Origin: Alphaproteobacteria bacterium
GTDB taxonomy: Bacteria > Pseudomonadota > Alphaproteobacteria > Micavibrionales > Micavibrionaceae
DNA length: 64,000 nt
Assembly: GCA_017999645.1 (NCBI GenBank)
Contig: JAGNLJ010000006.1
Location: 1-64,000 of the forward strand
Direction of reading: 5' to 3'
Part shown: in pieces, positions 56,270 to 64,000 of the stretch
Position numbering within the stretch: position 1 is the first letter of the stretch
How the letters are laid out: every line of letters starts with the position of its first letter
Program-made: the position numbers and the translations under genes
Notes under the pieces: model-generated
What the model was told of the DNA's origin: nothing
What the model saw: only the letters and a program-made list of their open reading frames with translations
Databases searched by the model: none

Positions 56270-59200
56270 ATGCCTGAGTCTTTTATCCATCTTCATACGC
56301 ATTCTGCCTATTCGCTGGCGGAAGGGGCGATTCAGACCAAAGACCTTGTGAAACTCTGTGCGAAGGAGGGCATGCCCGCCCTAGCTGTGACCGACACAAA
56401 TAATATGTTCGGTGCGCTTGAGTTCGCCATGGAGGCACAGAAGGGTGGCATCCAGCCGATTATCGGCACGCAGATGACTGTCGGCAGCGAGGGGCATCAG
56501 TTGGTTTTGTTGGCCCAGACGGAAGAAGGATACCGCAATCTTTGCTTGCTGATCAGCGATGCTTATTTGCAGGGTGATCCGCAGGTGAATGTTCATCTTG
56601 ATCGTGAGAAGCTCCGTGCTCACTGCAAAGGGTTGATTTGTCTGACCGGCGGCGCGAAGGGTGCGGCGGCGCAATTTCTTGTGCATGGACAGAAGGAACA
56701 GGCGGACGCTGAAATTTCTGAGCTCAAGAAAATTTTCAAGGACAGGCTTTATATAGAATTGCAGCGCCATGGATTGCCTGAAGAAGATTTGAGCGAGGGC
56801 GGGCTGATCGAGCTTGCCTATAAGCATGACATTCCGCTCGTCGCGACGAATGATTGCTATTTCAGCGAGCCGGATATCTACGAGGCGCATGACGCGCTGC
56901 TGTGCATTGCCGATGGCCGTTACGTCACTGAGGAAAACCGCCGCAAGGTCACGCCCGAGCATTATTTCAAATCCGCCGACGAGATGATTGAGCTTTTCAA
57001 GGATGTGCCGGAGGCGATTGATAATACGGTTGTGATTGCGCAACGTTGTTCGTACCTGTTGCAGGCGATCAGTCCCATTCTTCCGGCGTTTGAGACCGAG
57101 GGCGGGCGAAGCGAATTCGAAGAGCTCGCCGCGCAGGCGGAAGAGGGGCTTGAATGGCGCCTGAAAAACTTCGTCACGAGTGAAGCCGAGCCATACCGCG
57201 AGCGGTTAAAATTTGAGCTCGACGTCATCAAGGGCATGGGGTATCCCGGATATTTCCTGATCGTTTCGGATTTTATCCGCTGGGCGAAGGACAATAAAAT
57301 TCCTGTGGGGCCGGGGCGCGGATCGGGCGCGGGTTCCGTCGTGGCGTGGTCGCTCCGTATTACCGACCTTGATCCATTGGCATTAGGATTGCTGTTCGAG
57401 CGTTTCCTGAACCCGGAACGTGTATCCATGCCGGACTTCGATATCGACTTCTGTCAGGAGCGGCGGGACGAGGTAATCCGTTATGTGCAGGAAAAATATG
57501 GGTACGATCAGGTCGCGCAGATTATTACATTCGGAAAATTGCAGGCACGAGCCGTGGTGCGCGATGTCGGACGTGTATTGCAGATTCCGTACGGTCAGGT
57601 CGACAGGATTGCGAAATTAATTCCTAACAACCCGGCGCAACCGGTGACGCTGGCCGAGGCGCTTGCGGCTGATGAGGAGCTCCGCAAGGTCCGCAACAGT
57701 GACGATACGCAGAAAAAATTGATCGATATTGCGCTGCAGTTAGAGGGTTTATACCGCCACGCTTCGACGCACGCGGCTGGTGTCGTGATCGGCGAGCGAC
57801 CGTTGCATGAATTGCTGCCGATGTACCGCGATCCGCGCTCGACCATGCCGGTGACGCAGTTCAACATGAAATATGTCGAGCAGGCAGGATTGATCAAGTT
57901 CGACTTCCTCGGCCTCAAGACCATGACGGTGATCCAGAAGACGCTGGACATGATCGCGGCGAAAGAAAAAACCATCGATCCGCTGCAAATTCCGCTGGAT
58001 GATGAAAAGGCCTACAAGCTTATGGCGAGCGGCAATACGGTCGGCGTGTTCCAGCTTGAAAGCTCGGGCATGCGCGACATGCTGCGCAAAGTCAGGCCAA
58101 GCCGTTTTGAAGACATCATCGCGCTCGTCTCGCTCTACCGTCCCGGCCCGATGGACAACATCCCGAAATATGTCTCGGTGAAGGAAGGGCGCGAGCAGCC
58201 GGATTATTTGCATCCGAAGCTGCAGCCTTACCTGGAAGAAACTTACGGCATCATGATTTACCAGGAGCAGGTGATGCAGGCCGCGCAGGTTCTGGCGGGG
58301 TATACACTCGGCGGCGCCGATTTGCTTCGCCGTGCGATGGGTAAGAAGATCAAGAAGGAGATGGATGCGCAGCGCGATCAGTTCATCAAGGGCGCGCAGG
58401 AGCATAATAATGTCTCCGCCGAGCGCGCGGATTATATTTTCGACCAGATCGATAAGTTCGCCGGATACGGTTTCAACAAATCGCACGCGGCGGCGTATGC
58501 GCTGATCGCCTACTGGACGGCGTGGCTGAAGAGTAATTACACGCTGGAATTCATGGCGGCGTCGATGACACTCGATATGGGCAATACGGACAAGCTTAGC
58601 GTTTTCAAGCAGGATCTCGACCGCATGGGGATCAAGACGCTGCAGCCGGATATCAATACGTCGAGCGTGGAATTCAAGGTGGAAGGCGATTCCATCCGGT
58701 ACGCGCTGGCGGCGCTGAAGAATGTCGGCGCGGGCGCGATGGACGGGATTGTGCAGGAGCGAGCTGCGAACGGTGCGTTCAAATCGGTCGAGGATTTTAT
58801 TTCGCGCATCGATCCGAAACTTCTGAACAAGCGGCAGTTCGAGCAGCTTTCGGCAGCGGGGGGTTTTGAAAGTTTAAATCCGAACCGGGCGCAGATGGCG
58901 GCGTCGGCGGAATTGTTGCTGCGGCACGCGCAGTCACTGGCGGAGGAAAGAAATTCCGGACAGGTGAGTTTGTTCGGAGAAGGCGGCGGCAACGGGCTCG
59001 GGATGCCGGAGCTGCCGAAGACTAAGGACTGGAGTCCGCTCGAGAAGCTCGAGAAGGAATTCGGCGCGGTCGGGTTTTACCTGTCGGCGCACCCACTCGA
59101 CAGCCGGCAGAAGCAGTTTGAAAATTTAAAGATCGTTACGTTCGCCAAGGTGGAACATGACCTGGCGCATAAAAGCGCGGGCAGTTACCAGATGGCAGGG

Positions 59201-59662
59201 GTGATCCTGAAGAAGCAGGAGAAGGTTTCGCAGAAGGGAAGCAAATATGCATTCCTGCAGCTCTCGGACCCGACCGGGATTTTCGAGGTGACATTGTTTT
59301 CGGAATTGCTGGCTGTCAGCCGTGAATTCCTGGAGCCGGGGCGGGCGGTGCTGCTGCGGCTCAGCGCCGAGCAACGTGAGGACCAGACGCGGTTTACGGC
59401 GGAGCGGATCGAGCCATTAGACGCGGCGCTCGAGGGCAAGATCCGCGAGATCCGCATTTTCCTGAAAAACCCGCAGGCGGCGAAGAAGATCCGGGAGTTC
59501 CTGGATATCGAGGGGAAGGGGAATTCGGAAGTTACGCTTTATCTCGATATCGAGAACGGACGGCGGGCGGCGATCAGGCTGCCGGGACGGTGGAGCTTAA
59601 GCCAGCAGGCGCGGAATATCATTCGCGGCGAGCCGGGCGTGGCGGAGATACTGGAAGCATAG
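56270..59662 (+). CDS. dnaE: DNA polymerase III subunit alpha
   Basis: Replicative polymerase, 1,130 residues, DnaE1 type. The N-terminal PHP domain starts FIHLHTHSAYSLAEGAI with intact histidines. The palm has GPGRGSGAGSVVAWSL and the catalytic PDFDIDFCQERRDEVIRYV. Finger and helix-hairpin-helix regions follow (GYGFNKSHAAAYALIAYWTAWLK), then an OB domain (YQMAGVILKKQEKVSQKGSKYAF). proS-lolC-lolD-dnaE is a conserved order. The start lies 39 nt after lolD. Confidence 0.97.
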   Translation: MPESFIHLHTHSAYSLAEGAIQTKDLVKLCAKEGMPALAVTDTNNMFGALEFAMEAQKGGIQPIIGTQMTVGSEGHQLVLLAQTEEGYRNLCLLISDAYLQGDPQVNVHLDREKLRAHCKGLICLTGGAKGAAAQFLVHGQKEQADAEISELKKIFKDRLYIELQRHGLPEEDLSEGGLIELAYKHDIPLVATNDCYFSEPDIYEAHDALLCIADGRYVTEENRRKVTPEHYFKSADEMIELFKDVPEAIDNTVVIAQRCSYLLQAISPILPAFETEGGRSEFEELAAQAEEGLEWRLKNFVTSEAEPYRERLKFELDVIKGMGYPGYFLIVSDFIRWAKDNKIPVGPGRGSGAGSVVAWSLRITDLDPLALGLLFERFLNPERVSMPDFDIDFCQERRDEVIRYVQEKYGYDQVAQIITFGKLQARAVVRDVGRVLQIPYGQVDRIAKLIPNNPAQPVTLAEALAADEELRKVRNSDDTQKKLIDIALQLEGLYRHASTHAAGVVIGERPLHELLPMYRDPRSTMPVTQFNMKYVEQAGLIKFDFLGLKTMTVIQKTLDMIAAKEKTIDPLQIPLDDEKAYKLMASGNTVGVFQLESSGMRDMLRKVRPSRFEDIIALVSLYRPGPMDNIPKYVSVKEGREQPDYLHPKLQPYLEETYGIMIYQEQVMQAAQVLAGYTLGGADLLRRAMGKKIKKEMDAQRDQFIKGAQEHNNVSAERADYIFDQIDKFAGYGFNKSHAAAYALIAYWTAWLKSNYTLEFMAASMTLDMGNTDKLSVFKQDLDRMGIKTLQPDINTSSVEFKVEGDSIRYALAALKNVGAGAMDGIVQERAANGAFKSVEDFISRIDPKLLNKRQFEQLSAAGGFESLNPNRAQMAASAELLLRHAQSLAEERNSGQVSLFGEGGGNGLGMPELPKTKDWSPLEKLEKEFGAVGFYLSAHPLDSRQKQFENLKIVTFAKVEHDLAHKSAGSYQMAGVILKKQEKVSQKGSKYAFLQLSDPTGIFEVTLFSELLAVSREFLEPGRAVLLRLSAEQREDQTRFTAERIEPLDAALEGKIREIRIFLKNPQAAKKIREFLDIEGKGNSEVTLYLDIENGRRAAIRLPGRWSLSQQARNIIRGEPGVAEILEA

Positions 59663-59773: not shown

Positions 59774-59781
59774 ATGATTTG

Positions 59782-60492
59782 ATGAAGGCATTGGTTATTT
59801 GCTCAGGCGGTCTCGATTCCGTCACGCTCGCGTACAAGATTGCGCGTGAAAAGCAGCTTACAGGATTAATCTCTTTCGATTACGGCCAGCGGCACAAGCG
59901 CGAACTGCTTTGCGCTGCCGAGTGCGCAAGTGCTCTTGGCGTTCCGCATTCCGTTATCGATATCTCGCAGGTCGGCGCGCATTTGTCCGGCTCGGCTTTG
60001 ACGGATGATATTGCCGTGCCGGACGGGCACTATGCAGAACAGACAATGAGAATAACTGTCGTGCCTAACCGTAACGCGATCATGCTCTCCATCGCTTACG
60101 GTATTGCGTCCGCGCGGAAGGCCGATGTTGTCGCGGCGGCATTTCATGGCGGCGATCATTATATATATCCGGATTGCCGTCCGCCTTTTGTGAAGGCATT
60201 CGAGGCAATGCAAAGACACGCGCTTGAGGAGATTTCCGATATCAGCCTCTATACACCTTTCATCAAAAACACCAAGGCCGAGATCGTGGTTGAAGGCGCG
60301 CGTCTGGGTGTCGATTTTGCGAAGACCTGGTCATGCTATAAGGGCAACGACATTCATTGCGGGCGTTGCGGCACATGCGTGGAGCGGCGCGAGGCTTTCG
60401 CCATCGCAGGTGTTGTTGACCCAACTCCGTACGAAGATCAAAATTTCTGGAGCCAGGCGGTTGAAGAAAAACGAACAGGGAGCAGGCAGTAA
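59782..60492 (+). CDS. queC: 7-cyano-7-deazaguanine synthase
   Basis: Converts 7-carboxy-7-deazaguanine to preQ0 with ATP and ammonia. The start is the ATG at 59782, 8 nt after the AAGG in the riboswitch; a TTG just before it is less likely. The 236-residue protein has the PP-loop VICSGGLDSVTLAYK. The zinc site follows near the C-terminus (CYKGNDIHCGRCGTCVERR). Its stop shares bases with the queD start. Confidence 0.96.
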   Translation: MKALVICSGGLDSVTLAYKIAREKQLTGLISFDYGQRHKRELLCAAECASALGVPHSVIDISQVGAHLSGSALTDDIAVPDGHYAEQTMRITVVPNRNAIMLSIAYGIASARKADVVAAAFHGGDHYIYPDCRPPFVKAFEAMQRHALEEISDISLYTPFIKNTKAEIVVEGARLGVDFAKTWSCYKGNDIHCGRCGTCVERREAFAIAGVVDPTPYEDQNFWSQAVEEKRTGSRQ

Positions 60493-60848
60493 TGTTCAGG
60501 ATCGCAAAACAATATCATTTTTCCGCTTCGCATATATTGCCGCAATTACCGGCGGATCACCCCTGCGCGCGGATGCACGGCCATAATTATGTTGTCGAGG
60601 TGGAACTACAGTCCAGGACGCTGAATTACGCAGGGTTCGTCAGGGATTACCGCGAGCTGGACGATCTTAAAAAATATATCGATGAAACGCTCGATCATCG
60701 TCACCTGAACGATGTGCTCGGCGATGACGGGACATCGGCGGAATCTCTTGCCAAACATTTTTATGACTGGTGCAAGCAGCGCTGGCCGGAAGTCGCAGCA
60801 GTACGCGTCAGCGAGACGCCGCGCAGCTGGGCAGAATACAGGCCATGA
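60492..60848 (+). CDS. queD: 6-carboxy-5,6,7,8-tetrahydropterin synthase
   Basis: Second step of queuosine precursor synthesis, acting on dihydroneopterin triphosphate. The 118-residue protein has the zinc ligands His14 (FSASH), His29 and His31 and the catalytic Cys25 (CARMHGHNY). The DHRHLND segment is also typical. The start ATG overlaps the queC stop by one base, and its stop overlaps queE by 4 nt. Confidence 0.96.
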
Positions 60849-61558
60849 TCCGGGTCAGCGAAATTTTCGGGCCGACCATACAGGGTGAGGGGGCGTTGAT
60901 AGGCAAGCCTACGGTCTTCGTGCGCACGGGTGGGTGCGATTACCGTTGTTCATGGTGTGACACGCTGCATGCGGTGGAGAGCGAGTACCGCGATGAATGG
61001 AAGCTGATGAGTCCTGAAGATGTCTGGGCAAAAGTGGAAGAGCTTTCCGGGGGGGAGCCACTGACCGTTTCGCTTTCCGGCGGCAACCCGGCGATACAGC
61101 CGCTCGGGCCGCTCATCGCTCTCGGGAAATCGAAGGGATATGAGTTTGCGCTGGAGACGCAGGGCAGCATTGCACAGCAATGGTTTGCCGATCTGGATAT
61201 TTTGATATTGAGTCCGAAGCCGCCTTCGAGCCAGATGAAGACGGATCTGAAGGTGCTGGATGATTGTGTTGGGAGTGCCGGAAGCAAGGCGCGGGTTATT
61301 TTGAAATTCGTTGTCTTCGACGATGCCGACTATCTGTATGCGAAAGAGATTGCCGCGCGCTATCCGGAATTGCTGGTTTATCTCCAGCCTGGCAATCATA
61401 CGCCGCCGAACGGTCAGAAAGAGCAATCGGTTGATATGGATGGAATTATGAATCGTATGCGCTGGCTGGTTGAAAAGGTCAGCGTTGATCGATGGTTTTC
61501 TGTCACAGTGTTGCCGCAACTGCATGTGTTGCTCTGGGGCAATATGCGCGGCGTTTAG
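60845..61558 (+). CDS. queE: 7-carboxy-7-deazaguanine synthase (radical SAM)
   Basis: Radical SAM enzyme that forms the 7-deazapurine ring. The frame is open further upstream inside queD, but the ATG at 60845 ([20 protein letters not shown]) overlaps the queD stop as ATGA and gives the normal N-terminus, 237 residues. The [4Fe-4S] motif is CDYRCSWC (Cys31, Cys35, Cys38). The [11 protein letters not shown] motif binds SAM. Confidence 0.95.
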
Positions 61559-61571
61559 GAAAGGGATAAAA

Positions 61572-62036
61572 ATGGAAAAAGATAATTACAAAAATCTCAC
61601 GCAGCTTGGCGAAAAAACCGCTCTGCCTGAATCGCCGGACAAGGCGGTTCTGGAGCGCGTGCCAAACCCGCAAAAGGGCTCTGCCTATAATGTGCGTTTC
61701 ACCGCGCCGGAGTTTACGTCTTTATGCCCGATTACGGGGGCGCCAGATTTCGCGCATATTGTCATCGATTATGTGCCGGGTGACTGGCTGATTGAAAGCA
61801 AGTCGCTGAAGCTGTTTTTAGGGTCGTTCCGCAATCACGGCGCGTTTCATGAAGATTGCACGGTCTCGATTGCGAAAAGAATTGTGGAGGCCATTCAGCC
61901 GCAATGGCTGCGGATCGGTGGGTACTGGTATCCACGCGGGGGGATGCCGATCGATGTGTTTTACCAGACGGGTGCGATGCCTAAAGATGTCTGGGTTCCC
62001 GACCAGGGTGTGCCGACTTACCGGGGGCGCGGTTAG
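61572..62036 (+). CDS. queF: NADPH-dependent preQ0 reductase
   Basis: Reduces preQ0 to preQ1, the base inserted into tRNA by Tgt and also the riboswitch ligand. The start is the ATG at 61572 behind AAAGGG; the longer frame inside queE is discarded. The 154-residue protein is the short type I form, with the nucleophile Cys52 ([12 protein letters not shown]), Asp59, the [16 protein letters not shown] helix and FHE at residues 92-94. It completes the GTP-to-preQ1 set except for folE. Confidence 0.96.
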
Positions 62037-62168: not shown

Positions 62169-62197
62169 TTGCAAAAGTGCGGCTTTAACAGTAAAAA
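62169..62197 (+). promoter_or_regulatory. Candidate promoter for rpsB
   Basis: TTGCAA (62169-62174) and TAAAAA (62192-62197) are spaced 17 nt apart, upstream of the structured leader. TTGTCA at 62153 is an alternative -35 without a good -10. Confidence 0.35.
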
Positions 62198-62218
62198 CCC
62201 TTCAATTGTAAATTCACA

Positions 62219-62289
62219 TGCGGGAACGGGCCGATGATTTAATCGTCCCATCCGGTGTAAGGATTGGTCCTTATACTTAAATTCCCGCA
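62219..62289 (+). ncRNA. Structured 5' leader of rpsB (candidate)
   Basis: TGCGGGAA (62219-62226) pairs with TTCCCGCA (62282-62289), closing a three-way junction. Inside are a hairpin with GGG-CGAT/ATCG-CCC arms (62228-62249) and one with TAAGGA/TCCTTA arms (62258-62273). The segment ends 28 nt before the rpsB ATG. By analogy with other ribosomal-protein leaders it may bind S2 or S1 for feedback control. I could not match it to a named family. Confidence 0.55.
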
Positions 62290-62317
62290 GAGGCTTTAAC
62301 CGGAAAAGGACTGCAAC

Positions 62318-63127
62318 ATGGCAATGCCAGACGTAAACATGCGCCAGCTTCTCGAGGCAGGCGTTCACTTCGGACACCACACCCGCCGCTGGAACCCCAA
62401 GATGCGCCAATATATTTTCGGCGTTCGTAACGGCGTTCACATCATCGACCTGCAACAAACCGCACCGATGCTTCAGACTTCGCTGAAAGCGATCCGCGAT
62501 ATCGTCGCCAATGGCGGCCGTATCCTGTTCGTCGCGACGAAGCGCCAGGCGCAGGAAAAAGTTGCTGAATCCGCAAAGCGTTGCGGTCAGTACTACGTGA
62601 ACCAGCGCTGGCTTGGCGGCATGCTGACCAACTGGAAAACGATTTCAGGTTCGATCAACCGCCTGCGCGAAGTTGACCGTATCCTCGCCGGCGAAGGACA
62701 GGGTTATAAGAAAAAAGAACTGCTGATGATGGCGCGCGAGAAAGAGAAGCTCGAGTCGTCGATCGGCGGGATCAAGGAAATGGGCGGCCAGCCTGATGCG
62801 CTGTTCATCATCGACATCACGAAAGAAGATATCGCGGTGAAGGAAGCCAACAAGCTCGGCATTCCGGTTTTCGCAATTGCCGACACGAACGCCGACCCGG
62901 ATGGCATCGACTACGTCATTCCCGGCAACGACGACGCGCTCCGTGCGATTGAATTGTACTGCGACCTGGTTACGGAAGCGGTTCTCGACGGCCTGCAGGC
63001 TGAAGTGACGAAATCCGGCAAGGATATCGGCGCATCGGCTGATTTGAAGGTCGAGTTGCCTGCGGAGAAAGCGTCCGCACCGGCAAACGAAGAAAAAGCC
63101 AGCAAGAAAGCGGCTTCGGCGGCTTAA
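62318..63127 (+). CDS. rpsB: Small ribosomal subunit protein S2
   Basis: Ribosomal protein uS2, 269 residues. It has the start [31 protein letters not shown]-like pairing region ([13 protein letters not shown]), and [13 protein letters not shown], then the second signature [25 protein letters not shown]. The C-terminal 35 residues are a Lys/Ala/Glu-rich tail. rpsB-tsf order is normal. AAAAGGA precedes the ATG. Confidence 0.97.
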
Positions 63128-63136
63128 CATCAACAT

Positions 63137-63201
63137 TGTCACCCCCGCCTTGGTCGGGGGTCTGGCAAAAAAACCGGATCCCCGCCTTCGCGGGGATGAC
63201 A
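63137..63201. repeat. Dispersed double-hairpin element, copy 2
   Basis: A 65-nt element with termini TGTCACCC and GGATGACA. It carries a left hairpin (around CCCCCG...CGGGGG) and a right hairpin (ATCCCCGC-CTTC-GCGGGGAT). Its right half, reversed, matches the left half of the copy at 24536-24601. It lies between rpsB and tsf and could reduce read-through or shape mRNA ends. Confidence 0.7.
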
Positions 63202-63222
63202 ACTAAGAAAAAGGAATACACA

Positions 63223-64000
63223 ATGGCTGACATTACAGCATCAATGGTCAAGGAACTCCGCGAGTCGACCGGCGCAGGCATGATGGACGCGAAAAACGCG
63301 CTCGTCGAAACGAAGGGCGACATGGAAGCGGCGGTTGACTGGCTCCGTAAAAAGGGCCTGTCGAAAGCAGCGAAGAAATCGGGCCGTACGGCGGCTGAAG
63401 GTCTTATTGCCATCGCGAGCGACGGCAAGGTGGCATCGGTTGTTGAAGTGAACTCCGAGACGGATTTCGTTTCGCGTAACGAAGAGTTCCAGGCGTTCGT
63501 CAAGCAGGTCGCGCAAATCGCCCTGAAAGCGGACAATGCGGAACAGTTAGCTAAGATGGATTGCGGCGGCAAATCGGTTCAGGACACCTTGACCGATAAA
63601 ATTGCCACCATCGGCGAGAACATGAACCTTCGTCGTTCGGCGCGCCTGTCGGTCGACAAGGGCGTTGTTGCTGCTTACATGCACAGCGCGCTGGCCCCTA
63701 ACTTAGGGAAGATCGGCGTCCTGGTGGCCATGGAATCCGACGGCAAACCGGAAGTCCTGGAAGCCACCGGCAAGCAGATTGCGATGCATATCGCGGCTGT
63801 GAACCCGGCTTCGCTGGATGTTTCGGCACTGGACCCGAAAGCGGTCGAGCGCGAGCGCGACATTTTCCGTGAACAGGCGAAAGCCAGCGGCAAAGCACCC
63901 GAGATTATCGAAAAAATGATCGAAGGACGCCTGCGCAAGTTCTATGAAGAGGTTGTCCTGCTGGAGCAGGTATTCGTCGTCGACGGCGAGACCAAGATAT
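63223..64000 (+). CDS. tsf: Elongation factor Ts (truncated by window end)
   Basis: Nucleotide exchange factor for EF-Tu. The ATG at 63223 follows AAAAAGGA and starts [21 protein letters not shown]. About 259 residues are visible before the window ends. The UBA-like N-terminal domain with [10 protein letters not shown], the contact motif [17 protein letters not shown] and most of the two core subdomains are present. The stop codon lies outside the window. Confidence 0.96.

Follow-up and report, generated by a model that had tools for sequence, protein, structure and literature searches.

The leader immediately in front of rpsB in the window (the whole 64,000-nucleotide stretch of Micavibrionaceae DNA analysed here) is an ordinary copy of the already described rpsB motif (Rfam RF01815), and is neither lineage-specific nor unnamed. 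Across the Alphaproteobacteria it is kept in the same place, just ahead of rpsB, with compensatory changes, and it can be recognised in E. coli. Judged from sequence comparison and by analogy with E. coli, the window leader, as a member of this motif, very probably acts as an S2-binding autoregulatory mRNA leader.

The preliminary description of this DNA had reported an 8-bp closing stem around two hairpins directly upstream of the rpsB start, and minimum free energy (MFE) folding of 62219-62289 gave the same arrangement at -31.7 kcal/mol (z -4.56, a stability reached by 0 of 200 dinucleotide shuffles). In the wider context of 62200-62335 the same fold stays, but with a z of only -1.73 and 13 of 200 shuffles as stable. 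The closing stem P1 (UGCGGGAA paired with UUCCCGCA) encloses hairpins P2 and P3 (Table 1). The three-way junction as first drawn was therefore right in its stem and hairpins, whereas the CACA ahead of P1, the limits of P3 and a pseudoknot of six pairs between the P2-P3 junction and the 3′ tail had been missed. P3 has 10 bp in the MFE fold and its outer three pairs take the GGU (62254-62256) of the pseudoknot, hence in the knotted form P3 is confined to the limits given in Table 1. When the leader was dinucleotide-shuffled 2000 times, a perfect P1 of at least 8 bp together with a perfect pseudoknot of at least 6 bp in the same geometry turned up 8 times, and 620 other 120-nt stretches taken from the window gave 3 cases. 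The combination is rare, not unique, in one sequence and it is the comparative evidence that decides.

Table 1. Features of the rpsB leader and its flanks in the window.
Feature	Position	Strand	Basis or remark
Probable promoter TTGCAA - 17 nt - TAAAAA	62168..62196	+	Pattern match; predicted
Conserved CACA	62215..62218	+	Just 5′ of P1; invariant in the 28-sequence seed A1, whose sequences were chosen partly by this CACA anchor itself; also in E. coli
P1 5′ strand	62219..62226	+	Fold; changes on both sides at 8/8 pairs among relatives
P2 hairpin, variable arm	62228..62249	+	MFE fold and arm survey of relatives
Pseudoknot 5′ strand UCCGGU, P2-P3 junction	62251..62256	+	Conserved pairing; same J2-3/3′ extension pairing in the available text of PMC2704228
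P3 hairpin	62257..62274	+	MFE fold; at least 3 bp in 89/91 relatives
P1 3′ strand	62282..62289	+	Fold; covariation among relatives
Conserved GAGG after P1	62290..62293	+	Invariant in A1; GGAGG in E. coli
Pseudoknot 3′ strand ACCGGA	62299..62304	+	Conserved pairing among relatives
Shine-Dalgarno AAGGA	62306..62310	+	Read from sequence; 7 nt before ATG
rpsB, ribosomal protein S2, 269 aa	62318..63127	+	Homologues in 109/115 genomes
tsf, elongation factor Ts	63223..64000, runs off window	+	Second gene of presumed operon

For the comparison, rpsB upstream DNA was taken from the loci of about 100 of 115 genomes (RpsB was found in 109 of them). Two of the 102 loci (L001-L102) were left out of the covariance model search, L029, whose leader looks the same as that of L028, and L096, which lacks upstream DNA. 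A hand-written search for the best P1 and pseudoknot in each relative gave the expected site in most, was clearly wrong in many (e.g. L004, L011, L025 and L079) and served for seed choice only; a covariance model took its place. In the 28-sequence alignment P1 and the pseudoknot are 95.7% paired, with 49 double-change cells where shuffles give 14.3, a figure that is favoured by selection because the seeds were chosen partly for showing the P1 and CACA pattern. The covariance model R1 was built with P1, P2 and P3 and without the pseudoknot. It matches 91 of the 100 rpsB-upstream loci at E<=1 and 87 at E<=0.01; 28 loci are the R1 seed and match by construction, and among the other 72 the corresponding counts are 63 and 59.

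Covariation among the rpsB upstream regions of relatives was the check named in the preliminary description, and its claim survived, with compensatory changes at all 8 pairs of P1. In the R1 alignment 95.1% of P1 cells are paired and double-change cells number 190 against 49.6 in shuffles (0 of 500), with column-slide controls reaching at most 42.6% paired for one column and at most 55.8% over all slides, although these figures are favoured by an alignment that was itself fitted to P1. The pseudoknot is 92.3% paired in the same alignment and shows 14 double-change cells against 5.4 in shuffles (0 of 500), with slides of at most 53.2%. The number of pseudoknot pairs with a double change (298 of 500) and the number of pair types (404 of 500) were not above shuffles, two measures that fail because the strand hardly varies. 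At least five of the six pseudoknot pairs form in 81 of the 91 aligned relatives, and fewer than five in 10 of the 91 rows as aligned, several of these through alignment shifts or gaps. Three short partial R1 hits (L086:10-47, L041:600-628 and L026:2330-2367) were removed by hand from the pairing, promoter, arm/spacing and GGU counts and remained in the P1 and pseudoknot covariation counts.

P2 is the variable part of the structure. Where its arm is at least 14 nt long (68 relatives), a hairpin of at least 3 bp forms in 66 of 68 cases; the other 23 of the 91 relatives have an arm of 4-10 nt. Leaders without P2 (L004, L007, L010, L020, L022 and others) often have CCUU(A) or something similar following P1 and CCAAGG ahead of the P1 3′ strand, and these stretches are perhaps an extension of P1.

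Given that P3 in the MFE fold of the window gains three pairs at the expense of the pseudoknot strand, competition between P3 and the pseudoknot for GGU could be read as a two-state switch that works without protein. Full pairing of GGU into P3, however, was seen in 22 of 88 relatives (88 of the 91 rows) as against 29.9 with the last 9 nt shuffled, and as it is no commoner than in shuffles we rejected this switch, which we regard as very unlikely.

R1 gave no match in nine of the 100 loci. By eye, six of them (L023, L043, L056, L058, L064 and L087) retain all or most of P1 along with a re-paired pseudoknot, L097 has a possible re-paired pseudoknot, L039 is a doubtful case and nothing is seen in L100. 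The re-paired pseudoknots read in this way are UUUCAGU/ACUGAAA (L056), UAACAGU/ACUGUUA (L058) and CUUUGU/ACAAAG (L043). L049, which R1 does match, shows a UUUUGU/ACAAAG pairing by eye that is gapped in the R1 alignment.

No known motif name had seemed to fit this leader, yet it belongs to the rpsB motif described by Meyer et al. 2009 (PMC2704228), RF01815. The available text of that paper places the motif, pseudoknot included, before rpsB in most Alphaproteobacteria, most or many Gammaproteobacteria and some other groups, and the anatomy that it gives is the same as that of the window leader, with differences in sequence details only. In the window and in its relatives the leader lies immediately upstream of rpsB, and the pseudoknot between J2-3 and the 3′ extension, of five pairs in the motif, has six pairs in the window. 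RF01815 matches 62215-62315 over its full length (1-132) with 29.9 bits (E 0.00018 on 206 bases). The gathering score of 40 is not reached, so that the default scan at gathering thresholds returned four tRNAs only from the window and the RF01815 match surfaced with an E-value threshold; a stricter whole-genome RF01815 search did not list the window's genome. The cut-off is a limit of the database and not of the anatomy, and since close relatives of the same anatomy pass it we file the window leader as a member of RF01815. What the window contributes is thus one more copy of a known leader, one that goes undetected at default Rfam thresholds. RF01815 under-detects in this order generally, being at or over its cut-off in 18 of 115 relatives as against 91 of 100 rpsB-upstream loci with the tailored model. 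The L13 leader of Bacteroidia, the sole mention of rpsB in the available text of Eckert and Weinberg 2020 (PMC7247131), is not this motif.

Across the class, R1 matches 202 of 289 sampled genomes, the other 87 giving no match under the stricter filters of that search. The best-scoring 30 loci, the window's own included, all lie directly before rpsB, and the window's genome holds one significant R1 match. The earlier suggestion of a lineage-specific RNA is ruled out by this class-wide range, by the distribution given in the available text of PMC2704228 and by the R1 match to the homologous E. coli leader. The other part of that suggestion, a candidate ribosomal-protein autoregulatory RNA, has good support from covariation, from class-wide conservation before rpsB and from homology with E. 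coli.

The best named match of the window RpsB is Micavibrio sp. UBA7657 (99%), and by its named relatives the window falls within Micavibrio or close to it. The ORF that follows rpsB we take to be tsf, from its protein and the gene order, and ORFs at 59779-62036, between dnaE (56270-59662) and rpsB, presumably include queC, queD, queE and queF, which they resemble. Two palindromic repeats lie in the rpsB-tsf gap (63136-63203); the repeat sequence ATCCCCGC-N-GCGGGGATGAC has 6 copies in the genome and its backward control 0. Of 90 relatives, 48 have a promoter match similar to that in Table 1 within the 90 nt 5′ of the motif, where mononucleotide shuffles would give 9.1; for the window itself a consensus promoter scan instead proposed 62185-62214. 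Rfam types RF01815 and t44 as 'Gene; sRNA' and E. coli t44 carries the annotation of a putative small RNA, labels that would favour a separate small RNA. We nevertheless consider such an RNA extremely improbable here, given that the conserved pseudoknot reaches the rpsB Shine-Dalgarno sequence, that the motif stays attached to rpsB and that about half of the relatives have a promoter-like site 5′ of the motif.

The conserved CACA and GAGG and the nearness to the Shine-Dalgarno sequence would also fit a structured 5′ UTR with a role in mRNA protection or, as an S1-dependent enhancer, in ribosome recruitment, without S2 feedback, and S2 binding to the window leader is itself carried over from E. 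coli. Such a role appears unlikely in view of the homologous E. coli leader, an S2-repressed operator in the available text of PMC10931766, and of the location upstream of rpsB that is kept in relatives. In the S2 feedback that we favour, and by analogy with E. coli, free S2 in excess of 16S rRNA, probably helped by S1, would bind the knotted junction. Binding would stabilise the pseudoknot, whose 3′ strand stops 1-3 nt short of the Shine-Dalgarno sequence, and the 30S subunit could then not load. Translation of rpsB would fall, and that of the downstream tsf would fall too through lost coupling.

From the 3′ end of the pseudoknot to the ATG the distance in the 91 relatives, as aligned, has a median of 16 nt (minimum 12, maximum 46), which is close enough in most of them to clash with initiation. 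In L042, L088, L090 and L022 the pseudoknot lies 38-46 nt from the start codon as aligned, the first three being rows in which the pseudoknot columns are shifted or gapped, and in L023 it lies further away by eye; simple occlusion is therefore not the whole story, and in these relatives entrapment or competition seems more likely than plain Shine-Dalgarno pairing. In the L023 and L039 leaders the pseudoknot region is separated from the Shine-Dalgarno sequence by repeat-like inserts tens of bases long. In L043 and L049, of one genus in the same family, the pseudoknot 3′ strand has shifted so as to overlap the Shine-Dalgarno sequence, with the CUUUGU/ACAAAG pairing of L043 lying within ACAAAGGAG. 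That the pseudoknot is itself the gate on the ribosome-binding site is a tentative reading, which we find possible and rather doubtful. If it were true, the overlap in L043 and L049 would mean direct Shine-Dalgarno sequestration there, whereas in E. coli the ribosome-binding site lies outside the operator according to the available text of PMC10931766. In L003, from the same genus as the window, a palindromic repeat of the type found in the rpsB-tsf gap sits inside P3 (at about 1370-1480), with P1 and the pseudoknot intact. Natural variants of these kinds (knot in the Shine-Dalgarno sequence, repeat in P3, distant knot) could separate models of S2 repression.

In E. coli, uS2 represses translation of rpsB-tsf via the 5′ UTR and is effective only with bS1, and the available text of PMC10931766 calls the mechanism unclear because the ribosome-binding site lies outside the operator. 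The E. coli K-12 rpsB leader is annotated tff/T44 and matches Rfam t44 (RF00127). In Rfam, RF01815 (window 62215-62315) and RF00127 (L137, 261-347) are both typed as sRNA genes and are shown without a clan. No t44 match was found in the window region up to E 10 and no RF01815 match was detectable in the E. coli leader, of which the plain MFE fold is not significant (z -0.92). The connection between the window and t44 instead rests on R1, which matches the E. coli leader with 18.9 bits (E 2.1e-5 on 601 bases, filters off). By eye, the E. coli leader reads CACA, P1 (CACGUAUC/GAUACGUG) and GAGGCAUA, and it shares with the window the CACA ahead of P1 and the (G)GAGGCAUAACC behind it. Unlike the window leader it is without P2. 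Both leaders share the pseudoknot between junction and 3′ tail and the position before rpsB-tsf, with GGGGU/ACCCC in E. coli in place of CCGGU/ACCGG in the window (by eye). That the pairing has been swapped while the frame is otherwise shared speaks well for both the pseudoknot and homology, and RF01815 and RF00127 appear to belong to a single class of cis-acting S2 leaders.
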